A stretch of 64,000 nt of DNA from Leptolyngbya sp. NIES-3755 (lineage in GTDB: Bacteria; Cyanobacteriota; Cyanobacteriia; Leptolyngbyales; Leptolyngbyaceae): positions 4,411,030 to 4,475,029 of the forward strand of contig AP017308.1 of assembly GCA_001548435.1 (NCBI GenBank), in the 5' to 3' direction. Of this stretch, positions 18,045 through 31,081 are shown piece by piece (the stretch's first letter is position 1; every line of letters starts with the position of its first letter). Under the pieces are notes generated by a model. It was not told the DNA's origin. It saw only the letters and a program-made list of their open reading frames with translations, and searched no databases. The translations under genes and the position numbers were made by a program.

Positions 18045-20246
18045 CTAATTCTCGATCGCACTGGTCGCGACTGAACGTTCGGCATACCGTTGGGGTGTGC
18101 CATACGCTTGCCCGCGTGTTCCATTCGCAACAATCCCCAGAATCGGAATGTGAGCCGTTTCTAGATTCTCGATCGCGTCCATCACAGCGGAGCGAATGGT
18201 CTTTCTCAAAGTCGCAACCAGAATCAGTCCGCCTGCTTGGGAGGCGAGTAGGCTACTATCCGCAAGGTTGAGAACCGGAGGCGTGTCATAAATCACGAGA
18301 TCAAATGCAGCTTGTAAATCCTCCATTAAAGCTTGCATTTTTTGGCTCGAAAGCAATTCTGTGGGTTCAGCCGGAATTTGTCCAGAAGGTAACACAAACA
18401 ATCCACCCCGACCTGCAATTCGCATGAGGGCATTTCCGCCTTGGGCTTGAGGTGTAATCGGACTAATCGCGCTGTTAAAGTCAAAATTGTCGAGCAGTAG
18501 ATCGCTCAAGCCTATCTGATTGGGCAGATCTAACAAGGTGCTAATTTGAGGACTGCGAAGATCCGCATCCACGAGCAAAACTCTTTGTCCCATTGCTGCC
18601 GCCGCTTGAGCAAGAAACAGAGAGATTGTAGATTTGCCGTCTCCGGGTTGAGCTGAACTAATGACGATCGATTTTCTAGGCGATTTCCCGTTGAGGTGAC
18701 GGATCGTGGTGTTGAGCGATCGGAATGCTTCAGAAAATAGAAACTGCATTGAAGAGTTGGCAGCATTGGAGCGATTGAGCATGGCACTCCAACCTGAACT
18801 TTCATAGAGCGAGGGATAGTGAGGAATTGCTCCGAGTAGTGGTAGTTTTGCTTGCTTCTTCAGGTCAGAGGGCGATCGGAACGTGTTGTCCAGTTTTTCG
18901 AGCAGAAAGGCAACCGCCGCCGCTGCAAGTAATCCAGTCAGTGCACCGACAAGTAAGTTTTGAGGAGTAGATGTCAAGGGCACTTGGGGACTACCAGGCG
19001 GAGCAATTAACTGCCAGGACACCGTTTTTTGGGCGACTTCAGCCTGGAACATTTCTCGCATTTGTAGCAGGCGGTTGAGGCTTTCTGTCGCCACGGTGAG
19101 TTCGCGCTGAAGATCGGTGAATTGTCGCGATGTGATTGGGAGTTGTTGAGCTTGCTGCTGCCAATACTGAGTCGCATTGTCGATCGCAGAAAGTCGCACT
19201 TGTAGAATTGCCATTTGGCTCTCGATCGTGGATAGTCGATCGCCTAACACTCGACTCGCTTCTTGACGAAGCAGGGGTAATAATCGATCGCGCTGTTTCT
19301 GTAAGGCATTTAAGGTTGGATTGTCTCCTCGGAAACGCGCTTGCTCGATCGCGATTCGTCGCTCTAGTGCTTGGAGTTCACCAAAAAATTGTTGATAAGA
19401 CTGAGCTTGAGATAGAGCGACTCTGGCACCGGATTGATCGGCAAGACTGTTGTAAGCCTGCTGCACTTCTGCAAGCTGATTCCCTACTTCTAATCGCTGT
19501 TGTTCTAGAGCAGTCAGTTGACTATCGACCTGACCTGATTTGGTTTGGGGATCAACGATCGTGCGCTGCTGTCGGAAAGCTTGAAGTTGACGCTGTAGAG
19601 CATCAACCCGATTCTGAGTCTTCTTCAGTTGATCATTGACAAACTCAACGCCTTGACGCAAGTTACTTTGTCGCTCTTGCTGGCTATACCGCAAATAGCC
19701 TTCGGCAACTTTATCCAGGACAAACTTGACTCTTTGAGCATCTGAGTCTTGATAACTGACTTCGATGAGTTTCGATTGTGGCGGCTGTGTCACCGTGAGT
19801 CCGGACACTAAGACACCGTAGTTAAATCCGGGATACTGTGCCTGAATTTTTTGTGCGATCGGCTCTAGAATTTTGGGACTGCGAAGAACTTGGATCTGCG
19901 ATCGATAATCTAAGCCACCAGAGTTAGCAGCCCCTGTGAGTCTGGGTAACGCTTGATTGTCGGTGATCGGCTCAACGAGCAATTGAAAAGCGCTGCTATA
20001 CGTTGGCTGTCTAGTAAAGGACTGATACCAACTAATGCCAGAGACGACACTTGCGACCCCAATCATCACGATCGCACGTCGTCGCACAACATCCAAAATC
20101 GGTGCTAGGCTCCAACCGCCTTCTTCGGTTGAGGCAGCGGGAGTCGAGGGATAAGTCAGAATCGGTAGTAACTTCCCATTCGTTTCAGCAGATGCGGGGG
20201 AGGAGTTAGTGTTTTTCACGGGGCAAGATGGATAAACAATTCGCAA
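18045..20246 (-). CDS. Polysaccharide co-polymerase / tyrosine autokinase (Wzc-like)
   Basis: A 733-residue fusion of a Wzz chain-length domain and a BY-kinase. The N-terminal membrane segment is at about 58-78, a long coiled-coil region spans about 150-400, and a second membrane segment lies near 430-450. The kinase domain has Walker A SAQPGDGKST (about 529), Walker A' VLLVDADLRSP and Walker B LVIYDTPP. The C-terminal tail has only two tyrosines, not the usual cluster. It should control length and export of exopolysaccharide with the SLBB protein encoded 45 bases upstream. The longest start is TTG; a GTG at 20219 is an alternative and shortens the tail by nine residues. Confidence 0.9.
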   Translation of the reverse strand: MRIVYPSCPVKNTNSSPASAETNGKLLPILTYPSTPAASTEEGGWSLAPILDVVRRRAIVMIGVASVVSGISWYQSFTRQPTYSSAFQLLVEPITDNQALPRLTGAANSGGLDYRSQIQVLRSPKILEPIAQKIQAQYPGFNYGVLVSGLTVTQPPQSKLIEVSYQDSDAQRVKFVLDKVAEGYLRYSQQERQSNLRQGVEFVNDQLKKTQNRVDALQRQLQAFRQQRTIVDPQTKSGQVDSQLTALEQQRLEVGNQLAEVQQAYNSLADQSGARVALSQAQSYQQFFGELQALERRIAIEQARFRGDNPTLNALQKQRDRLLPLLRQEASRVLGDRLSTIESQMAILQVRLSAIDNATQYWQQQAQQLPITSRQFTDLQRELTVATESLNRLLQMREMFQAEVAQKTVSWQLIAPPGSPQVPLTSTPQNLLVGALTGLLAAAAVAFLLEKLDNTFRSPSDLKKQAKLPLLGAIPHYPSLYESSGWSAMLNRSNAANSSMQFLFSEAFRSLNTTIRHLNGKSPRKSIVISSAQPGDGKSTISLFLAQAAAAMGQRVLLVDADLRSPQISTLLDLPNQIGLSDLLLDNFDFNSAISPITPQAQGGNALMRIAGRGGLFVLPSGQIPAEPTELLSSQKMQALMEDLQAAFDLVIYDTPPVLNLADSSLLASQAGGLILVATLRKTIRSAVMDAIENLETAHIPILGIVANGTRGQAYGTPQRYAERSVATSAIEN

Positions 20247-20291: not shown

Positions 20292-22028
20292 CTAACGCAG
20301 GAAAAAGCCGAATGGTAGGATTTTTCCAAGAAAACCACCGACGCGATCCAGGGTGTCTTCGATTTTTGCACCACCAGAACGATCGACTAAAATCACGTCG
20401 TTGTTCCGCAGAATGGGGTTGCCTTTTTCATCCACGCCACGGGCAAAATCGATCGGGACGGCTTGACGCGATACGGTACCGTCTGGATTGAGTCGGAGCA
20501 GTTGAACGGATCGACGATTGGCGCGGCGATTGAAGCCTCCCGCCGATAAGAGCGCTTGATTGAGCGGACTATTGGGGGGAACTTGGACGGCTCCAGGAGA
20601 TTCGACTTCTCCGACGATGTTGACTCGAATTGCAGTCGGCGCAAAGGTAGAGCCACCAATTTGAGTGACTTCCGCAGCCGTGAGCGCAGTCCCTTTTGGA
20701 ATGACGATCGTATCTCCTTGTTGCAGCACGAGATCTTGAGTCGCATCGCCGCTCGATAACAGTTGCCACAGGTTGAGGCGCTTGGTTTGAGTGGTTCCTG
20801 AGCGGGTCGATCGACGGACTTCGACTTCGCGCACATTGGCAAGAGCGGTGATGCCTCCAGCCTGTTGAATCGCTTGACTGAGGGTGGGCAGTCCTCCTGT
20901 TGTGGCAGCGAGAACGATCGGTCCGGGTCGCATGACTTCACCGACTACGGTAATATTCAGGGCTTGTTTACTATCGCTTGCAAAGTTGGCGGTTGCGAGT
21001 TGTGAGGCTTCCGCGAGGTTGATGTCTGTATTGGTAGGAATGACAATGCTATCTCCATCTCGCAGGGTCAGATCTTGGCGGAGATCCCCGGTTTGTGTGA
21101 GTTCCCAGAGGTTGGCTTGAATGGTTAGAGCGGTGCCACCCGTTTGAGGACGGCGAATTGTGACTTTACGAGCATTTGCCGCTTGGGTGATGCCACCTGC
21201 TTGCTGAATTAATTGGGTGAGGGTGGGAAAGCTACTATTTTCTTGGTTGGTGAGGGCATAAGTACCAGGACGATTGATTTCTCCTGCGATCGCAACTCTC
21301 ACAGGACGGGTTGCTGTTAGGGTGACATCGACTCTCGGCTGATCTACGATCGGGGCGTACTTGGCAGCGATCGCGGCTTGAGCTTGCATCGGAGTCATTC
21401 CCCGCACTGATAAGGGTCCAACGAGATACAGATTGACGATGCCATTGACGAGGACTTGATAGTCGCGGCTGTATTCGGGGACGTTGAACAGTTCGACTCG
21501 AATGCGATCGCCTGCTCCGAGGGTGTAAGACGCATCGTCGATTTGAGTGGCGGGAACTTCTGGGGGGTTCTGAACCGGAAGTGGACTAGAGGATTGAACG
21601 GTAAGCGGTTTTGCGGGTTTTGCTTTGGGTTTTGGGGCGGATTGTGAGGGCAGCGATGATGCGATGATTTGATCGATCGGGATTTGATCGACGCGGATGC
21701 GAGAAATCTTGGGCTGAACTGGCGGGTTCTGCCGTGAGGTGAGTTTTAGTGGGGGAGTCTTCTGCTTAGGAGTGGACGGAAGGGGAGCAAACTGAAACGT
21801 TTGGGCTTCAGGCATGGGCACGATCGTTTCTGGAACTGCGATCGGATCAAGGGATTGAACGGATGCTGTTGAGGAATTTGGTTTGGTTTGGGTGTTGGAA
21901 GGTGTTGGAGTTGGGGGAGTGTCCGCAGTAGCGTTAGTGCGCCCCAATCCATAAGCGGCAAGGGTTGTAACGGTACCGAGAACAGCGACAGAAACACGAA
22001 CAGGAGTAGACTGCATAGATTCAACCAC
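20292..22028 (-). CDS. Polysaccharide export protein with SLBB domains (Wza-like)
   Basis: A 578-residue secreted protein. A hydrophobic segment near residues 13-30 is followed by a long Pro/Ser/Thr/Gln-rich region (about 35-160), then a Poly_export domain (YTLGAGDRIRVELFNVPEYS) and three SLBB repeats that start VRVAIAGEINRPGTY, ITVVGEVMRPGPIV and VNIVGEVESPGAV. No lipobox cysteine is evident, unlike classical Wza. It should form or gate the periplasm/outer-membrane conduit for exopolysaccharide, together with the autokinase downstream. The start is GTG or the ATG four codons later (22016). Confidence 0.9.
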   Translation of the reverse strand: MVESMQSTPVRVSVAVLGTVTTLAAYGLGRTNATADTPPTPTPSNTQTKPNSSTASVQSLDPIAVPETIVPMPEAQTFQFAPLPSTPKQKTPPLKLTSRQNPPVQPKISRIRVDQIPIDQIIASSLPSQSAPKPKAKPAKPLTVQSSSPLPVQNPPEVPATQIDDASYTLGAGDRIRVELFNVPEYSRDYQVLVNGIVNLYLVGPLSVRGMTPMQAQAAIAAKYAPIVDQPRVDVTLTATRPVRVAIAGEINRPGTYALTNQENSSFPTLTQLIQQAGGITQAANARKVTIRRPQTGGTALTIQANLWELTQTGDLRQDLTLRDGDSIVIPTNTDINLAEASQLATANFASDSKQALNITVVGEVMRPGPIVLAATTGGLPTLSQAIQQAGGITALANVREVEVRRSTRSGTTQTKRLNLWQLLSSGDATQDLVLQQGDTIVIPKGTALTAAEVTQIGGSTFAPTAIRVNIVGEVESPGAVQVPPNSPLNQALLSAGGFNRRANRRSVQLLRLNPDGTVSRQAVPIDFARGVDEKGNPILRNNDVILVDRSGGAKIEDTLDRVGGFLGKILPFGFFLR

Positions 22029-22245: not shown

Positions 22246-22908
22246 TTAATCGATCGATTTCTCTTTCTTTTTCAGTTGTTTTCTCCGCATCATTGCACCG
22301 ACCCCAAGAGCAATACCGGAACCTACGATCGTAAACGGTTCAGGAACAGCGCTGGTGTTGAAATCATCGATGGCGAACTGAAAACCACTCTGAGCAAAGC
22401 CAGCAGAACTGCCGCCAGAAGAAGACAATCTGATCGTATCAATGTTGTTGAATGTGCTGAAGGTTGCCAGAAGTGGCGCATTCGTGTTTGTCTGAACGGT
22501 TTGGGTGTTCTGAAGCACTCCATTGACGAAGCTTTCGATCGTGATATCGAGATTGTTTCTCCAAACCGCAGTCAGGGCTGCACCGAGAAAGTTAAATCGA
22601 TCGCCGTTTGATCGACGAATGGTAATCGGACTATCAAATCCATTGAAGGCAACATTGGAGCCTGAAACCGCAGCAACACTGTAACCGGATGGAACAAACT
22701 GAGTCGTGTTGGTGCTGACATAGTAGCCCGTTGTTCCCCAATCGAATCCTGCGTAGTTGTTAGGAATCGGTAGACCATCTTCGGGGGGAGTGGTAGGCAG
22801 ATCGTCAAAGTTGACTAAACCAAACGCATGGGCTGAAAGGGGAGCAGCACAAGTGAGCAGCGCTGTACCGATTGCAGAGATCGCGAACTTAGGAAGAGTG
22901 AATGACAT
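22246..22908 (-). CDS. PEP-CTERM sorting-domain secreted protein 1
   Basis: A 220-residue secreted protein starting MSFTLPKFAISAIGTALLT, a signal peptide ending near AHA. An in-frame start 20 codons earlier exists but would bury the signal; AGGA lies ten bases before the chosen ATG. The body is rich in Asn, Thr, Ser and Gly with no catalytic motif. The C-terminus is a PEP-CTERM signal: VPEPFTIVG, a hydrophobic span, then a basic tail RRKQLKKK. It should be transported by Sec, anchored briefly in the membrane and processed by the exosortase encoded about 5 kb away. Its C-terminus is nearly the same as that of the next PEP-CTERM gene, suggesting duplication. Confidence 0.9.
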   Translation of the reverse strand: MSFTLPKFAISAIGTALLTCAAPLSAHAFGLVNFDDLPTTPPEDGLPIPNNYAGFDWGTTGYYVSTNTTQFVPSGYSVAAVSGSNVAFNGFDSPITIRRSNGDRFNFLGAALTAVWRNNLDITIESFVNGVLQNTQTVQTNTNAPLLATFSTFNNIDTIRLSSSGGSSAGFAQSGFQFAIDDFNTSAVPEPFTIVGSGIALGVGAMMRRKQLKKKEKSID

Positions 22909-23087
22909 ATTGGAGCGTCCTGAAGTTAGGGGAAAAACGATAGATACTCCCTCAACAAACCTGCTCAAGTCAATCTTGCTGCTAAGCTAGCACGGATCAT
23001 CATTTCCTGCGAGAAAGCGATCGATAGGATAATCCTCATCGATCGCGATAATTAAGTGAGCTTTCGATCAGTACAACTCGTGAGAGT

Positions 23088-23732
23088 TTAACCGATCGAT
23101 TTCTCTTTCTTCTGTTGCTTTTTCCGCATCATTGCGCCAACACCGAGCGCGACTGTCGAACCTACGATCGTAAACGGCTCTGGCACAGCATTGGGAGCAT
23201 TGTCAAATTGAGCATACAAAGTAGCATGAGAGAGATCAGGCTGTCGCCCTCCATTATTCAAGAAATTAGCAGTAGACCAACTACCAGATAAAGGTGTTGC
23301 CGATCCAAAGTGGTAGTAGGCGTAATCATTAGCTGCCTTCAAAGCAATAATGAAGGAACTCAGAACCTTGCCAGAAGGAATGGTAATGCCGCCGATGTTC
23401 CAAGTGCCAGTCTGTCCAATACTAGCAACAGTGAAGCCATTAACAGTACTTCCACTAGCCGAGGGATCATTGACTCGACCAACATTAGTCCAGCCAGTCC
23501 CCCAAGCAGCGGATAAACCAGGAACTGTACTGATTTTGCTAGTAAGATCAGTTAGTGAATCATTACCATTGTACACACCTGCACAACTATCTGCACCTGA
23601 TACTACAGCAGAACAAGGACGAACAGTGCCTGTTCCCCCGTATACCGTAAATGCGGAGGCAGGTTTTACCGCTGTGGTCATGGCAATGCTCACTGCTGCT
23701 GCCGCGATCGGCAAAACAGGATTGAATTTCAT
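23088..23732 (-). CDS. PEP-CTERM sorting-domain secreted protein 2
   Basis: A 214-residue secreted protein. The start MKFNPVLPIAAAAVSIAMT is chosen because GGAG lies eight bases before it and the signal peptide begins at once; the longer frame adds ten unlikely residues. The body contains two cysteines (RPCSAVVSGADSCAG) that may pair. The C-terminal signal is VPEPFTIVGSTVALG plus a basic tail RKKQQKKEK. The protein should be an exosortase substrate on the cell surface. Upstream is 480 bases of AT-rich DNA without a gene, which leaves room for complex regulation. Confidence 0.88.
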   Translation of the reverse strand: MKFNPVLPIAAAAVSIAMTTAVKPASAFTVYGGTGTVRPCSAVVSGADSCAGVYNGNDSLTDLTSKISTVPGLSAAWGTGWTNVGRVNDPSASGSTVNGFTVASIGQTGTWNIGGITIPSGKVLSSFIIALKAANDYAYYHFGSATPLSGSWSTANFLNNGGRQPDLSHATLYAQFDNAPNAVPEPFTIVGSTVALGVGAMMRKKQQKKEKSIG

Positions 23733-23780
23733 TGATAAAACTCCATCTAAGTTAATGTACATTCTGAATCAACCATCCAA

Positions 23781-24137: not shown

Positions 24138-24171
24138 ACAAAAAACCATCGACTTATTTTCGTCAATGGTT
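24138..24171 (-). terminator. Rho-independent terminator ending the exosortase operon
   Basis: On the minus strand AACCATTGAC pairs with GTCGATGGTT (10 bp, one mismatch) around an 8-base loop, followed by TTTTTTG. It lies about 42 bases past the stop of the last gene in the operon. Confidence 0.75.
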
Positions 24172-24212
24172 CTCCCAAAAACAAGTTGTATTCCTATTAA
24201 TAGAAATATCAA

Positions 24213-25538
24213 TCATCCCTCTGAAGAAACCGATCGTAGCGAATACTGAAACTCATCCTCATTCAGTACAGATTGATACACTACATTTGCGTACTGTCGA
24301 GCAATAATCTCTGGCGTGAATCGAGCTTTCATATAACGTCGTCCCGATCGACCCATTCGTTCAACTAACTTCGGATCAGCAACCAAACTCCGAATAAAAT
24401 TCGCCAATCCTAGTCCATCCCCGTTGCTAAAACAAGCCCCACATTCCGCCTCATCAAACATTGATCGAAGATAAGAATGCTCCTCACAAATTGCCGCGAT
24501 CGGGCGACTCGCAGCCAAAGCAGAATACAACTTACTCGGCGCGACAATCCCCTCCATTCCGGGCTTCACGCTCACTAGCGACAAATCACACGCAGTCAAC
24601 GAAAATGGAAGATCCGCTTTATCTTGATACGGCAAAAGCTTAAAATTTTTCAGATCTAATCGATCGAGCTTTTCAATCAATCGATCGCGTTGAGCACCAC
24701 TGCCAATCACCAAAAACAGAACCGGATCATCTCGAAGTTCCTGAGCCGCTGCCACAATCGTTTCAATGTCATGACAACGCCCCATGTTGCCCGAATACAG
24801 CACTACAAATTTGTCCACTAACTCATGCTCTTGAGCAAACCAATTCTCCTGCTTCGGAATCGGTGTAATCAAATTCGGATCAGCCCAACTATGCACGATC
24901 GCAATCTTGTCTGCCACTTCAGGACATTTCGCCACAATTCGCGCTTTCATCGAAGAACTTAACACAATAATCCGGGTCGCTCGTTTCCAAACTCGTCGGT
25001 TCACCGCATCCCACGATCGCACAATCCAATGATTTGCAGGCTTAATCCCTAGCTCTACCGCCACATCTGGATAAAGATCGTAGAGTAAACAGATGTACGG
25101 CGTACCAAACAACCAATTTGCTAAAAACCCAAGAATCGGTAAAAACGGTGGCGCAGTGGTTAGCATTAACAAATCGCCCCGATTGTGCGATCGCAATAAA
25201 TACAATGCCGATCGCAAAACGAACATTAACCCATTCAAAGCCTTTCCACGAATCCGATTAGGGAACAGTTGAGCCGTACGCGATCGACGAACTAAAAGCT
25301 GGTGGGATCGCTCGATCGCAGGCGCTTCCGATCGACTAAACGCATAGCCAGGTTGTCCGGTAAAGACCTGCACAGACAATCCTTCTGGCTGCAAATTGCG
25401 AGACAATTCCTCAATCAACTGTCCGGTCGCAGCAAAATCCGGAGGAAAGAACTGTGTCAGAATCGAAAACTGAACTTGAGTGGGTGGAAGCTCCAAAGAA
25501 CGAGCGGGTGCTGAGACAGCCGTGCCTCTTCTTGTCAT
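24213..25538 (-). CDS. Glycosyltransferase family 4 (WcaI-like)
   Basis: A 441-residue GT-B enzyme. The N-terminal domain contains FFPPDFAATGQLIEELS, the loop by which many WcaI/colanic-type transferases bind acceptor; the C-terminal nucleotide-sugar domain contains VVLYSGNMGRCHDIET and the acidic region with GMEGIVAPSKLYSALAASRP, where the E-x7-E pattern is loose. It should transfer a sugar to a lipid-linked glycan at the inner face of the membrane. It is the last gene of the exosortase operon, 89 bases after the unrecognised coiled-coil protein, and a terminator follows. This links glycan synthesis with protein sorting in a single transcript. Confidence 0.88.
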   Translation of the reverse strand: MTRRGTAVSAPARSLELPPTQVQFSILTQFFPPDFAATGQLIEELSRNLQPEGLSVQVFTGQPGYAFSRSEAPAIERSHQLLVRRSRTAQLFPNRIRGKALNGLMFVLRSALYLLRSHNRGDLLMLTTAPPFLPILGFLANWLFGTPYICLLYDLYPDVAVELGIKPANHWIVRSWDAVNRRVWKRATRIIVLSSSMKARIVAKCPEVADKIAIVHSWADPNLITPIPKQENWFAQEHELVDKFVVLYSGNMGRCHDIETIVAAAQELRDDPVLFLVIGSGAQRDRLIEKLDRLDLKNFKLLPYQDKADLPFSLTACDLSLVSVKPGMEGIVAPSKLYSALAASRPIAAICEEHSYLRSMFDEAECGACFSNGDGLGLANFIRSLVADPKLVERMGRSGRRYMKARFTPEIIARQYANVVYQSVLNEDEFQYSLRSVSSEG

Positions 25539-25627
25539 ACAATCAATCCTTATCTGGGAACGAGAACTCTAATCAACTGGGGCGAAACATGACAAAACGT
25601 ATGACAATCTGAGTGCAAAAACACGGT

Positions 25628-26482
25628 CTACATTGAACCCTTTACGGTCATTCGTAGTAGGTTGAGAATCTGAGCTTCCTGAGCAGTCAGATCACTTCTG
25701 CCTTGAGCGATCGTCGTTTGCTGAGCTTCAAGCGACTGCTTCGCCCAAGTCCTGAGCGCACATCGTTTAGGGTAAGCAAACCAAATCATCATGGGACCGA
25801 CAATAAACATTGCGGCGATAAATGCCCAAGTCCAAGTGAACCAAGGTTTTAGAGCAAGCGTTGTGAGGATCAGACTTAAGACCGGAAGATATTCATAGAA
25901 AAACTCTAATCGTTTGGCTCTCTGAAGGAGTCTACGTTTCTGACAAGCGATCGGAGCGAGTTGTCGCAGCATTAGCTCCTCGTAGAACTCGTGAATCAAC
26001 TGTTGATAGTTCGATAATTCTTGCTGAAGTGAAGCTTCGTCACCGTCTAACACTCGTTCCAACAGTAAATCAAAGTTGATCTTGGCAAAAACGCGATCGT
26101 AGAGCTTTAGATTCAGCGATCGGATCGTCTGTAAATTCGTTTGTAGCCGAGTACAGAGCTTTTCAAACCGCATCTGTCGCGATTGAATCTCCTGAAGGAC
26201 TTGCTGATGTCGATTTCGACAGATTTGATGATGAGCTTGGTGCTCTGGCTGCTGCACAATCAAACTGAGACTGTCCGAAATCTGAATCAGTTCACGAAAT
26301 GAACACTGTAGAATTCGGGCAGGTCGTGAGAAGGTCGCGATCGCACTCACCAGCGAAGCCTGAGTGATCGTTTCAGAATGACTCAGATTCGTGGAATGAA
26401 CAACAGCGATTAACAATGCTTGTTCATCAGAACTCAGACTCGGCTGATGAAAAACCGTCAGACAATGTGGAGAATTCATCAT
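25628..26482 (-). CDS. Unrecognised coiled-coil protein with two membrane segments, in the exosortase operon
   Basis: I do not recognise this 284-residue protein. Residues 75-190 are strongly helical and charged, probably coiled coil (QVLQEIQSRQMRFEKLCTRL). Two hydrophobic segments lie at about 198-212 and 216-236, then a polar helical tail. There is no signal peptide, so it is probably a cytoplasmic-facing inner-membrane protein anchored near its C-terminus. It lies between the HpsJ-like gene and the GT gene of the same operon, 65 and 89 bases away. The setting suggests a role in coupling exosortase and polysaccharide machinery; that is inference. Confidence 0.7.
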   Translation of the reverse strand: MMNSPHCLTVFHQPSLSSDEQALLIAVVHSTNLSHSETITQASLVSAIATFSRPARILQCSFRELIQISDSLSLIVQQPEHQAHHQICRNRHQQVLQEIQSRQMRFEKLCTRLQTNLQTIRSLNLKLYDRVFAKINFDLLLERVLDGDEASLQQELSNYQQLIHEFYEELMLRQLAPIACQKRRLLQRAKRLEFFYEYLPVLSLILTTLALKPWFTWTWAFIAAMFIVGPMMIWFAYPKRCALRTWAKQSLEAQQTTIAQGRSDLTAQEAQILNLLRMTVKGSM

Positions 26483-26547
26483 GGTAGGTGGGGGCGATCG
26501 AGCAGTTGATTCAGTCGTAACTTGTACGGAGCAGCGATACTAGATTT

Positions 26548-27273
26548 TTAACCGCCCACATTCGCAGTGGCGCGTAATCCTGAACGGCGTTTGCGTCTTG
26601 ACCAACCACTAAAGCGCCAGAGCGAGAAGAATAAGACACTAGAGATAAATGCGCCGATGCCCCATTTAGTGGCACTCTTGTACAGGGCAGTGGCTTGGTT
26701 CGATTTTGCCGTCTCCGCTTGAGATTTCACGTTATTTCTGACCTGTTCTACTTCAGTAAGAAGCTGATTTTTAAGATCTGTGGGCGAGTTGACGTTAGCA
26801 GGAGGATTGCCTTGACGATTGAGGTTTTGCAGCAGCGTGGTTAGGTCTTGCGAACTGGCACTGCCGACTCGTTGTTCTAACTGTTGAAGCTGACTGATTT
26901 GAGCATTGACTTGATTGTTCAATTGGGCAGTGTTTTGAACATTCAGGCGCAAGGTCAACATCAGGAGCAGTGGAACCATCAATAGAAACACAACACTCGC
27001 AACGAGCGATCCCCAGGACAGGAGTTTGACGATCGCTTTTTCCCAGCGCTGCCGCAAATCGGTTTCACCAAAAAACACCAGCGGTAGTGCCAGCAAGGGA
27101 ACAGCGACCCGTTCAATGATCGCACCAATAGAATTAAACGTCCAAGCGACATCAAGCCAGCGAACCGGAAACAGAATGTTGATCCAATCGACGATCGCGA
27201 AAATGATCAAACCGTAACCAACAATGCGAAAAGCAGCGATCGAGGATAATTCTGAAGAATCTTGAGATTTCAT
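26548..27273 (-). CDS. HpsJ-family membrane protein (exosortase-associated)
   Basis: A 241-residue protein resembling HpsJ of the hormogonium polysaccharide locus and the HpsJ-like proteins beside cyanoexosortases. The N-terminal part has the typical FRIVGYGLIIFAIVDWI and ERVAVPLLALPLVFFGE segments (TM regions about 13-33, 50-66, 81-105). A coiled-coil periplasmic or cytoplasmic segment follows (about 110-200, rich in Gln and Asn) and a last membrane span at about 206-222 with a basic tail RRKRR. Its exact activity is unknown; HpsJ is needed for surface polysaccharide and motility in filamentous cyanobacteria. It is the third gene of the exosortase operon. Confidence 0.78.
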   Translation of the reverse strand: MKSQDSSELSSIAAFRIVGYGLIIFAIVDWINILFPVRWLDVAWTFNSIGAIIERVAVPLLALPLVFFGETDLRQRWEKAIVKLLSWGSLVASVVFLLMVPLLLMLTLRLNVQNTAQLNNQVNAQISQLQQLEQRVGSASSQDLTTLLQNLNRQGNPPANVNSPTDLKNQLLTEVEQVRNNVKSQAETAKSNQATALYKSATKWGIGAFISSVLFFSLWRFSGWSRRKRRSGLRATANVGG

Positions 27274-27315
27274 GGGTTAGAGTTTCTGGAAGTTGAGAAA
27301 AATCGAAAAATGGTC

Positions 27316-28008
27316 TTACATCAGTTGGAAACGGGGTTGCCACCACTGATACCACTCGATCCAGGCTTGTTCGAGAATTTGATAAGCTTGTTCCGGAGTG
27401 CGATTTTGCAGCGGCATTTGGAAATGAACAACGAGGCAGCGTTGATCACGTAATTCAGAAAGACCCACTAACCAAAGCAAAGGGCGCTCTGAAAGTAAGT
27501 CATTCACGTTGCGATTGTGTTGAAACTGCATCCCGGTGAATGTGCTTTCACCGCGACCATTGATACAGCTTGTGAGATGGGCTTTCTGTTGTTCAACGAA
27601 GACTCCATAAAACCCAACATTGTCTTTCTGTCGCACTGATAACTCAAGCTGGCTCTTAGATTTCAGCAGCGGCGTAAAAGTTTGAAGAATGGGTTTGACA
27701 TCGCCATTGCTAACGGGAAAGTAACGAATGGTGACTTCTAATGGAGTGCCATTTTTGAGATAGCGATACTGCCGATTCTGAATCGTATTGGCTTCTTTTA
27801 GTCCTGCATTTGGAATAATTTTGCTTTCTATTGCTTGCCAATCTGAGAGCGGAATCGAGTCTGGAAGTTCGATCGCTATATTCTCTGTACGAGCGGTCGC
27901 GGGCTTTGTCAGGAACAATGTTCTTGCAAATGTTAAAGTAATTGCAAAGAATGTGAGTCCGAGTAATCCCAGTCGTGCGGATTGCCAGAAAGAAGTTTGG
28001 TTTCGCAT
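27316..28008 (-). CDS. Cyanoexosortase system-associated protein (EpsI-like)
   Basis: A 230-residue protein with one N-terminal membrane segment (about 11-33) and a soluble, probably periplasmic domain. The pattern HLTSCINGRGESTFTGMQF (about 145-163) matches the conserved region of small proteins that accompany cyanoexosortases, related to EpsI. It starts three bases after the exosortase stop, so the two are translationally coupled. Such proteins are thought to assist the exosortase or link it to polysaccharide export, but no mechanism is proven. The subtype (A-associated versus others) is my best guess from motif resemblance. Confidence 0.78.
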   Translation of the reverse strand: MRNQTSFWQSARLGLLGLTFFAITLTFARTLFLTKPATARTENIAIELPDSIPLSDWQAIESKIIPNAGLKEANTIQNRQYRYLKNGTPLEVTIRYFPVSNGDVKPILQTFTPLLKSKSQLELSVRQKDNVGFYGVFVEQQKAHLTSCINGRGESTFTGMQFQHNRNVNDLLSERPLLWLVGLSELRDQRCLVVHFQMPLQNRTPEQAYQILEQAWIEWYQWWQPRFQLM

Positions 28009-28011
28009 GGA

Positions 28012-28872
28012 CTACCATTCCTCCTCTTCTTCAAGGGTTGGGTCTTCGTCTCTCAGCAACCAGTAGTAACAGATTGCCCCAACGATCGAGACTGCCAGCA
28101 TTGAAAATACGAGCGATCCGTTCCCATTATGCCAGTAGCCGAAAGCTTCATCATTTCCAGGAGCTGAGAGTACCGCTAAAACTGCCACGCGCACTGCATT
28201 AGTGAGGAATGCGATCGCAATTCCAACAATCGGCAAGACGATTCGCTGCATCCAAGTGGTGGGAAACATCAAAAAGGCTAAGCCGACGAATTTGAGGACT
28301 TGCAGAATCACAACAATGCCAGAGCAACCATGATAAACCTCGATCGAGGCTCCGGTGGACAGCATGATAAAGACTCCTTGCCGCTGTACCTCAAAGCCTG
28401 CAATCCAGAGCAGAACCGTTGTAAATCGGGCAGTGATCGGAGAAATTTCGATAAAGGCTAACGCAGTGGGTGGCAGTGCTAACAGCGTGAAGACGACGAA
28501 CTCACGCCAGTACGATCGGATATGTTTGAATCCTGAGGCAAGCAGCGCTAAACCGAGTCCGGTAATCAGTGGGAATAGTCTCAGGAACAGTCCTAGATCG
28601 GGCAGGATATGAATTCGGATCAGCGCGATCGCGATCAATCCAAATCCAACCAAACTGGCAAGAACGCTGCTATTGAATACTAAATCGTCGCGTTTTCGCC
28701 ACACCAGTGAAACAGCCGCCGCCCAAAATACAAAAGCATTCCCCTGAAATTCAGGCAGATCACTTTGCCAAACCAGCGAGAGGTGGATTGCCATCAGACC
28801 TGCACCGATCGCAAGGAGCCAGTACTTTGGGATTCGCAGCAGTTGAGTAGGTTCAGAGAGTACAAGTTTCAT
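28012..28872 (-). CDS. Cyanoexosortase (PEP-CTERM protein-sorting transpeptidase)
   Basis: A 286-residue membrane protein with about eight hydrophobic segments. The catalytic triad expected for exosortases is present: Cys183 in YHGCSGI, Arg228 in NAVRVAVLAVL and His248 in GYWHNGNGS. It should cleave PEP-CTERM signals of secreted proteins at the outer face of the inner membrane and pass them to another acceptor; three substrates are encoded nearby. The C-terminal end is very acidic (DEDPTLEEEEEW). The subtype is probably A-like, but I cannot exclude a related class. It is the first gene of a five-gene operon. Confidence 0.9.
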   Translation of the reverse strand: MKLVLSEPTQLLRIPKYWLLAIGAGLMAIHLSLVWQSDLPEFQGNAFVFWAAAVSLVWRKRDDLVFNSSVLASLVGFGLIAIALIRIHILPDLGLFLRLFPLITGLGLALLASGFKHIRSYWREFVVFTLLALPPTALAFIEISPITARFTTVLLWIAGFEVQRQGVFIMLSTGASIEVYHGCSGIVVILQVLKFVGLAFLMFPTTWMQRIVLPIVGIAIAFLTNAVRVAVLAVLSAPGNDEAFGYWHNGNGSLVFSMLAVSIVGAICYYWLLRDEDPTLEEEEEW

Positions 28873-28983: not shown

Positions 28984-29775
28984 CTAGGGAGTAATTCTTC
29001 TAAATCGAATTGTGGGTCCTGTCTGTGGAGGTGCGTAGCCTGAGAATGGCGTGTTGTATGACCACTGAAGCCGCTGTCCATTTGGCTGACCATCACTAAT
29101 TCCAACGGTAGCACTACCCCCATTATTGTTCGCCACGCCACTTCCGAAGAAGGTATCTGCGTAAGAAAGAAGAATGTCGCCAGAATTCTCAAACAGCACT
29201 GCCTGGAATGTAATATCTCCGCCGTTGTTTGTTCCGCCAACTCCCGCTTGATTCCATTGCACGATCAATCGTCGATCGCCCTGTTGTTGGGTTCCCCGTA
29301 CAGCATAGAAAGCTGTACCGTAGCTACCACCAAAATCTAAATCATCCCAGAAAGCCGCGATCGTAGGTCCAATATTTGTGGTCAAACTATTCAAGTTAAG
29401 ATTTTCGGGACGAGAATCAGTGGCAGGAGGAGAAGTCGAAGTGCCCAAAGCTAAAAAGCCATTCGAGCTAACCTGAAATCGATTGTAATCAACCCCGAAG
29501 AACCTGAAACTAAAGTTAAGTGATGTTGGTAGAAGCGCTGTGGAATTGTCATTGTTCAGTACAGAGTCTGCCGACGTAATATTTTCAAAGCTATAAGCCT
29601 CTAAACTTGCTCTATAGCCTCCTCCTGTAATGCTCGTTGCAGATGCAGTTTGTAATGTGCTGAGAATTCCAACACCTGCTAATACAGCAGTTAGCGCAGT
29701 GAGTGAACTGAGATTGCCGATCGTAAATAGAGACAGCGCGATCGACATTAGCGATCGCTTTAACGTAACCCGCAT
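28984..29775 (-). CDS. Secreted nidogen-like (NIDO) domain protein without PEP-CTERM signal
   Basis: A 263-residue secreted protein. The start MRVTLKRSLMSIALSLFTIG gives a signal peptide, and GGGGAAA precedes it by a few bases; an upstream in-frame extension of 44 codons lacks signal character. The body fits the NIDO domain: FRFFGVDYNRFQVSSNGFLA, then TIAAFWDDLDFGG and RLIVQWNQAG. The protein ends IRFRRITP with no PEP motif, no hydrophobic span and no basic tail, so it is not an obvious exosortase substrate despite lying just upstream of the exosortase gene. Likely role: surface or matrix protein (inference). Confidence 0.8.
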   Translation of the reverse strand: MRVTLKRSLMSIALSLFTIGNLSSLTALTAVLAGVGILSTLQTASATSITGGGYRASLEAYSFENITSADSVLNNDNSTALLPTSLNFSFRFFGVDYNRFQVSSNGFLALGTSTSPPATDSRPENLNLNSLTTNIGPTIAAFWDDLDFGGSYGTAFYAVRGTQQQGDRRLIVQWNQAGVGGTNNGGDITFQAVLFENSGDILLSYADTFFGSGVANNNGGSATVGISDGQPNGQRLQWSYNTPFSGYAPPQTGPTIRFRRITP

Positions 29776-29936
29776 GAGATTTCCCCAAACCAAGATAACA
29801 TCAGGACGAAACCACAACAGAACCGCGATCGTGCTGCGAAGTTCGGAACACGATCGTTGATCTGCTACTTGCCTGATAGAACACCCTGATGTGCGATCGC
29901 GGATCATTAGAATGCGATCGCAATGATTAAGTCGAA

Positions 29937-30686
29937 TTAGTCCACTTTCTGGGCTGCCAATTGACGCTTTTTGCGCTTCCGCTGCATCATGCCACCGACA
30001 CCTAAAGCAACCGCACTACCCAACATCGTAAACGGCTCAGGCACAGCAGAGAAGCCAGTCGCGATGCTATAGCCCCCATTTGTACGTTGTCCGCCCCAAC
30101 CGAGCAGAAGACCAGCCACTGAAATGTTCGGAGTCCGATTCGGTCCACCAATTCCTAAGAAGTAACTGCCCGCAGACAACAACAGCGGCGAAATCGTCGA
30201 ACTTCCTCCTGCAATCTGTTGAATCGTATTTGGTGCGCTTTCTCTAAACAACCAAAGCGTTGGATTCACTAACCCTGCAACCGTTTGTCCTCTGATCGGA
30301 TTAGGTACAGGAGTAGAACCAATCGAATTTGGGATTGTGAAACCCCTTGGTGTTGCAGTCGCGTTAAAGATAAAAGCATCTGACAGGCTAAATCTGAACA
30401 AGTCAGTGCCCGTTTCGCCGAGTGAAAATGGAGAAATCGCTCCTAAGATCGTGTTGCTTGCATTGGGAGCGCCAAGGTTGAGTGCATTGCTGAGAATATC
30501 TCCCGCGTCGCTCGTTAGCCCTTGGCTATTTGGAATCGTGACATTAACAATCGGAATCGTTGTCGTCGATTCACCGTTTGCAACTGTAAATGCTTGGGCA
30601 GCACCGATCGAGCCAAGCGTCGCGATCGCAGTTCCAGCCGCAGCCAGCCCGACTCGCTGGATTGAAGTTAACAAATTGAAAGCCAT
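29937..30686 (-). CDS. PEP-CTERM sorting-domain secreted protein 3
   Basis: A 249-residue secreted protein. The start MAFNLLTSIQRVGLAAAGT is preceded by AGGG at eight bases; a longer in-frame start would displace the signal peptide, which ends near AQA. The body (GETGTDLFRFSL, then LLSAGSYFLGIGG) has the beta-rich look of bacterial pre-peptidase C-terminal-type domains. The C-terminal signal is VPEPFTMLGSAVALG with the basic tail QRKRKKRQ. It should be processed by the exosortase encoded 1.1 kb downstream on the same strand. Confidence 0.88.
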   Translation of the reverse strand: MAFNLLTSIQRVGLAAAGTAIATLGSIGAAQAFTVANGESTTTIPIVNVTIPNSQGLTSDAGDILSNALNLGAPNASNTILGAISPFSLGETGTDLFRFSLSDAFIFNATATPRGFTIPNSIGSTPVPNPIRGQTVAGLVNPTLWLFRESAPNTIQQIAGGSSTISPLLLSAGSYFLGIGGPNRTPNISVAGLLLGWGGQRTNGGYSIATGFSAVPEPFTMLGSAVALGVGGMMQRKRKKRQLAAQKVD

Positions 30687-31081
30687 AAGTAGCCCTAAGT
30701 GATGGTCGTTAAATTTCATCTGCATGAACGTCCCTGACGAATAGATGCAATGAGCAGAGGTCATTCGCCTAGCATCACCCTGAGCGTGAAACCACGATAC
30801 GATCGCAGTCCCGCAAAAACCGATTCAGTATCATTACAGCGTATTTTCTGTAGCTGACACCCGTATCACATCTCTCGAAGTACTGTACCTCAGTATGTGC
30901 CAGAAAATCACGTGTAAAAGCGAACTTCACACGAACTTTACGCCACCACTTTAGCGCAAAGCATCCGTAATCACCGCATCTAAATATTAATCTTTTACAA
31001 AGGATACACGATCTTCTCTGAGATTTCTCCTGACTCACCCAAAGACCCCTGTATAAGAAAAAGAAATAGCACACCCGTGCT
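30687..31081. other. Gene-poor divergent region between PEP-CTERM gene 3 and wzm
   Basis: No convincing gene lies here. It should contain the promoters of the two divergent genes. AT-rich stretches such as TAAATATTAAT near 30980 are compatible with promoter elements, but I cannot fix a -35/-10 pair or an operator. Confidence 0.4.

Follow-up and report, generated by a model that had tools for sequence, protein, structure and literature searches.

A cyanoexosortase A gene cluster of known kind with one orphan gene in Leptolyngbya sp. NIES-3755

Introduction

The cyanobacterium Leptolyngbya sp. NIES-3755 carries, on the minus strand of the 64,000-nucleotide stretch of DNA analysed here (contig AP017308.1 of assembly GCA_001548435.1, positions 4,411,030 to 4,475,029; hereafter the window), a run of five genes encoding cyanoexosortase A (CrtA), its system-associated partner, an HpsJ-like protein, a 284-residue protein and a GT4 glycosyltransferase. 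The cluster is real and its kind is known; one of its genes, that of the 284-residue protein, is an orphan, and a new component of the sorting machinery is not supported beyond the genome of the window. The five genes probably constitute a dedicated CrtA module within an exopolysaccharide export cluster, with the orphan as a gene of a variable locus. The surroundings are of more use than the orphan, which by itself is of little consequence unless relatives come to light. The genome holds six exosortases with visibly differing C-terminal signals, and both the specificity of exosortases and the meeting of a sorted protein with an exported polysaccharide are therefore testable by swapping signals.

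The CrtA module and its cargo

All five open reading frames (ORFs) lie on the minus strand, and the names given to the genes in an earlier note, made from this DNA alone, hold over curated cut-offs for CrtA, the partner, the HpsJ-like protein and the glycosyltransferase Pfam domains. CrtA (286 residues, 28012..28872) scores 246.6 bits against TIGR03763 (cut-off 150), the cyanoexosortase A system-associated protein (230 residues, 27316..28008) 192 bits against TIGR04153 (cut-off 100), and the HpsJ-like protein of the cyanoexosortase A-associated type, or HpsJ-like A (241 residues, 26548..27273), 254.2 bits against NF050013 (cut-off 140). Cysteine, arginine and histidine are the catalytic residues of exosortases; in the window CrtA they are found as Cys183, Arg228 and His248, and the same three residues occur in 36 of 36 aligned exosortases, a set that includes the window protein, one CrtC and two CrtB-like proteins.

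Judged by sequence, these three proteins are members of already-named NCBIfam families that form a recurrent unit. HpsJ-like A matches over the cut-off numbered 35: besides the window, the surroundings of 33 were read, and one, on a contig of 3060 bases (G043), was left out. The 33 other loci, which include a second copy from the window's own genome, are not independent, since their source genomes are interrelated; the order is CrtA, partner, HpsJ in 26, HpsJ, CrtA, partner in four, and HpsJ alone in three, one of which sits at a contig end. All three proteins exceed the cut-offs of the cyanoexosortase A system and stand in its common order, and the window differs in that the trio is followed by the orphan and GT4 genes, an arrangement found at none of the 33 other loci. 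The passages available of the ZepA zinc paper (PMC10957091) hold nothing on CrtA loci.

Read in the direction of transcription, a PEP-CTERM gene and a NIDO-domain gene are followed by the genes for CrtA, its partner, HpsJ-like A, the 284-residue protein and GT4, and then by two further PEP-CTERM genes, a Wza-type gene and a Wzc-type gene. The five genes thus sit midway in a longer cluster for surface polysaccharide and protein sorting. From the ORF coordinates, the four intergenic gaps from CrtA to GT4 measure 3, 42, 65 and 89 bp. The Wza-type polysaccharide export protein (20292..22028, minus strand) has Poly_export and SLBB domains (PF02563, PF10531 and PF22461 over cut-off), and the Wzc-type chain-length protein (18045..20246, minus strand) has a tyrosine autokinase domain (TIGR01007 130.9 bits, cut-off 108.05; PF02706 Wzz 29.4, cut-off 25.5).

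Two PEP-CTERM models together identify 13 proteins over cut-off in the genome, three of them encoded within 7 kb of the window CrtA. These three end in VPEPFTMLGS (29937..30764; TIGR04155 43.2 bits, cut-off 21.6 here and below), VPEPFTIVGS (23088..23762; 42.1 bits) and VPEPFTIVGS (22246..22968; 45.8 bits), all on the minus strand, so that the VPEPFT signal is shared by 3/3 PEP-CTERM proteins beside the window CrtA and by 0/10 of the others. The six exosortases comprise four CrtA (the window and 0.474, 4.841 and 4.915 Mb), a CrtB at 5.339 Mb and a CrtC at 5.386 Mb. The neighbour of the 4.841-Mb CrtA ends in IPEPITLMGS and CrtC has a PTPA-CTERM protein as neighbour; with the two PEP-CTERM models no gene over cut-off was found near the 0.474-Mb CrtA or CrtB. 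The confinement of VPEPFT to the window, together with the differing signals at other loci, argues for cargo specific to each exosortase and suggests that the window holds a dedicated sorting module. The window CrtA has at most 44% identity to any row of the exosortase tree, and its own placement there is unsettled. Another CrtA is common to five of the eight genomes of the genus (own genome included) and forms, with one family copy, a clade (99/100) outside which the window CrtA falls.

Some further features of these loci were observed. Of the six exosortases (loci L032, L127, L128, L129, L130 and the window), four, namely those of the window, L128, L129 and L130, lie within ~6 kb of a PEP-CTERM or PTPA-CTERM gene. 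Directly upstream of the 4.915-Mb CrtA and its partner, a gene at ~4.912 Mb (L129:4793-7828) encodes a 1011-residue protein with Ser/Thr kinase, VIT and vWA domains and the PEP-CTERM end VPEPAEIAGS. The CrtA-partner pairs at L128:7966-9491 and L129:8049-9450 are, unlike the window trio, without an HpsJ-like gene picked up beside them.

A mechanism may be proposed from these genes. The three VPEPFT proteins would be secreted by Sec and retained in the inner membrane through a C-terminal helix, and the window CrtA, a predicted transpeptidase-like enzyme of the Cys/Arg/His kind, would process them at the PEP motif together with its partner and HpsJ-like A. After processing, these proteins may arrive at the surface alongside or bound to a polysaccharide, in whose synthesis GT4 would take part and whose export would fall to the Wza/Wzc pair. 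For the orphan we can offer a guess: an inner-membrane accessory with a helical hairpin and both termini in the cytoplasm, which would tune the window exosortase or polysaccharide assembly and would be dispensable for CrtA systems in general. In the parts available of its description, the EpsH/PEP-CTERM system (PMC1569441) is alike in having an exosortase in an exopolysaccharide locus and cargo with PEP-CTERM ends, and is described as having most PEP-CTERM genes in single-gene operons, whereas cargo genes flank the window exosortase.

The orphan 284-residue protein

The gene of the 284-residue protein (25628..26482, minus strand) looks real and native-like in codon usage: its coding statistics resemble those of its neighbours, with 0.13 log-odds per codon in frame and negative values in the other five frames. 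An AlphaFold model made without an alignment predicts a mostly helical protein at low confidence (mean predicted local distance difference test score, pLDDT, 55; predicted template modelling score, pTM, 0.26). Hydropathy gives one clear hydrophobic segment at 215-233 and a weaker one at ~192-211 (peak 1.34), which makes a C-terminal membrane hairpin at ~191-236 plausible, its first span being weak. Of the earlier description as a coiled-coil, double-span protein, the helicity and one clear span are retained; the second span is weak, and the coiled coil itself has no support beyond helicity.

The 284-residue protein was also described as unrecognised, and rightly so, as it reaches the threshold of no family in Pfam, NCBIfam, PHROGs or PADLOC and matches no PDB sequence at a meaningful score. 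Below threshold, its matches to PspM (expectation value, E, 0.18), CARF and Antigen peptide transporter 2 are probably due to chance. Membership of the SLATT family (NF033634 / SLATT_1; 14.5 bits, cut-off 41, E 0.026) was rejected; the reversed sequence used as a control gives a chance match at E 0.02.

Searches for homologues recovered the own gene only among 58 relatives and among the 42 genomes returned for the order, and nothing credible beyond it in 388 genomes of the class and 386 of the phylum, the four sets overlapping. In the class, three genomes match at E up to 0.001, through the own gene, G094, and a noise match in G503 that crosses two stop codons. In the phylum, the same threshold passes the own gene, G094 and a noise match in G281 (E 1.9e-4) that crosses six stop codons, and no match of the reversed decoy; at E up to 10, the orphan has matches in 70 genomes and the reversed sequence in 62, both totals including the own genome. 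Nothing was found by scanning genome and viral contigs for sequence patterns, an approach limited to close relatives, or by tblastn of plasmid and phage collections; both kinds of search may omit records of the own genome. The profile and homologue search called for in the earlier note has thus yielded no credible homologue in any of these sets, near exosortases or away from them. At the 33 other HpsJ-like A loci, a phmmer comparison with all ORFs of at least 60 residues also found nothing, so that the orphan is present in 0/33. Judging from sequence, the 284-residue protein, put forward in the earlier note as a candidate new component, is an orphan and does not belong to CrtA systems generally; it may have a role at the window locus alone.

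Alternative explanations

The 284-residue protein might be a genuine, fast-evolving fourth component of the CrtA system whose relatives lie beyond sequence recognition, a proposal that we consider improbable. Its gene lies directly 3' of HpsJ in a compact run on one strand, the product is helical and probably membrane-associated, and none of the family libraries searched contains a match. However, at the 33 other loci the gene after HpsJ has the opposite orientation 18 times, and four of the 15 same-strand cases are CrtA itself, and the phmmer search at these loci was empty; moreover, in the same set of 58 relatives HpsJ-like A is recognised over its cut-off in 32 and its CrtA is found by simple phmmer. 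We regard it as unlikely, if somewhat less so, that the gene is carried as an unrelated passenger by a variable island for surface polysaccharide, serving for example defence or envelope stress and without a role in sorting or glycan assembly. The locus does look strain-variable, since the seven other genomes of the genus lack a GT4 match at E up to 1e-60 and the window CrtA falls outside the clade of the CrtA common to five of its genomes, and the sub-threshold resemblances to SLATT_1 and PspM would fit such a passenger. The equally strong match of the reversed sequence leaves SLATT unsupported, however; phage, viral and plasmid collections gave no match, the PADLOC match is sub-threshold only (E 0.017, 12.1 bits), and the codon usage is native-like. 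Very improbable indeed is a distant relationship to a family of cyanobacterial membrane proteins of ~484 residues (L066, L067, L068, L073). Four members match the N-terminal region of the orphan at 16-21 bits, and with a profile built from four members the orphan reaches 21.9 bits and its reversed sequence -1.0, but those four were picked because they matched the orphan. With a profile of 34 members the score falls to 1.3 bits, the family member of the own genome likewise scores 1.3 bits, and the family was rejected as a remote relative. It is membrane-type and conserved, being present in 50 of the 58 relatives (L143, ~1.199 Mb, in the own genome); in several genomes, the own one included, a stop codon was observed within the matched stretch.

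We return to a dedicated CrtA module within an exopolysaccharide export cluster, accompanied by a gene of a variable locus, as the explanation that we favour. Several results weigh against it. In the phylum search the best matches of the orphan (1.9e-4 and 2.7e-4) surpass the best decoy match (1.4e-3), and at E up to 0.01 nine orphan matches besides the own gene stand against two for the decoy; four of the nine, G094 among them, belong to the one orthologous family of ~484 residues whose similarity vanished with the broader profile. Gaps of 65 and 89 bp flank the orphan, whose co-transcription with its neighbours is presumed. The VPEPFT pattern is a post hoc observation, and in 2/14 control genomes one of the two PEP-CTERM models also exceeds its cut-off, so that some of the ten other proteins may not be true cargo. 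Finally, the single-sequence model of the orphan, which is too poor (pLDDT 55) to show a fold, has no Foldseek match at E up to 0.001. Very doubtful is a bolder variant that makes the orphan a recently evolved adaptor with a membrane hairpin, physically coupling the window exosortase module to a GT4/Wza/Wzc polysaccharide line of its own, in a genome whose six exosortases would each act on a distinct C-terminal signal.

The GT4 glycosyltransferase

The GT4 protein (441 residues, 24213..25538, minus strand) exceeds the cut-offs of PF00534 and PF13579. Its best NCBIfam match is the WcaI family (NF007640), to which it scores 128.6 bits, yet this is under the cut-off of 276, and it is best called WcaI-like. 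At E up to 1e-60 it has matches in 19 of the 58 relatives, a count that includes the own genome, and in 0/7 other genomes of the genus. Nineteen of the 20 matches outside the window were read in context, and one with 35% identity (G054) was left out. Some GT4 relatives adjoin export genes, a Wza-type gene lying within 6.5 kb in 4/16 places (L105, L112, L114 and L115; on the opposite strand in L112). In four places, by contrast with the WcaI family, GT4 is part of a protein of 822-861 residues (L049:1982-4450, L051:10815-13373, L060:12151-14736 and L110:7029-9548). In L049, L051 and L060 it forms the N-terminal part of the long protein, 2.5-3.8 kb from an HpsJ-CrtA-partner set; in L110 the protein has 839 residues, and the part of the locus listed contains no CrtA. 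The three CrtA copies near a long GT4 form one clade (96/91) and may therefore reflect one event. Proximity of GT4 to CrtA would thus represent at most two independent events, and proximity to a Wza-type gene is seen in the window and in the four places above. Pfam, run on L049 only, places EAL and response-regulator (receiver) domains behind GT4 in the long protein, possibly a glycosyltransferase linked to cyclic di-GMP.

The hormogonium link

The earlier note tied the locus to hormogonium-type polysaccharide, a link that proves weak. Against the hormogonium polysaccharide HpsJ model (NF050014) the window protein reaches 54 bits, below the cut-off of 260, and it is of the CrtA-associated type A instead; a better match in the same genome, at 3.405 Mb, scores 255.3 bits, just under the cut-off. 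According to the parts available of a study of Nostoc punctiforme (PMC12188702), CrtB is the exosortase tied to hormogonium polysaccharide, its locus contains Wza and Wzc genes, and deletion of crtB abolished motility and biofilm formation. The window likewise has an exosortase near Wza/Wzc genes and an associated protein, but the exosortase is CrtA, whereas Nostoc, in the portion described, has CrtB with a TIGR04533 partner. The Leptolyngbya genome has its own, separate CrtB locus at 5.339 Mb, with an aminotransferase gene and a Wza-type gene (both sub-cut-off), CrtB, a TIGR04533 partner and a Wzc-type gene. As this is laid out much like the Nostoc locus, a hormogonium-type role more likely belongs there than to the window. 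The main text of the synechan paper does not mention exosortase, HpsJ or cyanoexosortase.

Boundaries and neighbouring genes

A hairpin at 24140..24175 (minus strand), 3' of the GT4 gene, is a probable intrinsic terminator, with -17.7 kcal/mol, a z score of -3.93 and 0/200 shuffles folding as well, and the earlier call of a terminator at this place is borne out. Six T residues end its 3' arm, and the outer pairs of the fold draw on this T run itself; a simple consensus terminator scan missed the hairpin, which is nonetheless plausible as a terminator. Upstream of CrtA lie the NIDO-domain gene (28984..29907, minus strand; PF06119 30.8 bits, cut-off 25), whose product is without a PEP-CTERM end, and the PEP-CTERM gene at 29937..30764. 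No terminator-like site was listed on the minus strand between the latter and CrtA by the same scan that missed the GT4 hairpin, and the five-gene unit may extend upstream to these two genes of the same strand.

Four rhamnose genes, all over cut-off, occupy the far side of the cluster together with an ATP-binding cassette (ABC) polysaccharide exporter, whose permease and ATPase are both matched below cut-off only. Past these genes a long run of plus-strand ORFs occupies 37146-63458 of the window; in Pfam, three of them gave one glycosyltransferase, one acyltransferase and one ORF without a match, and several ORFs of the run resemble glycosyltransferases.

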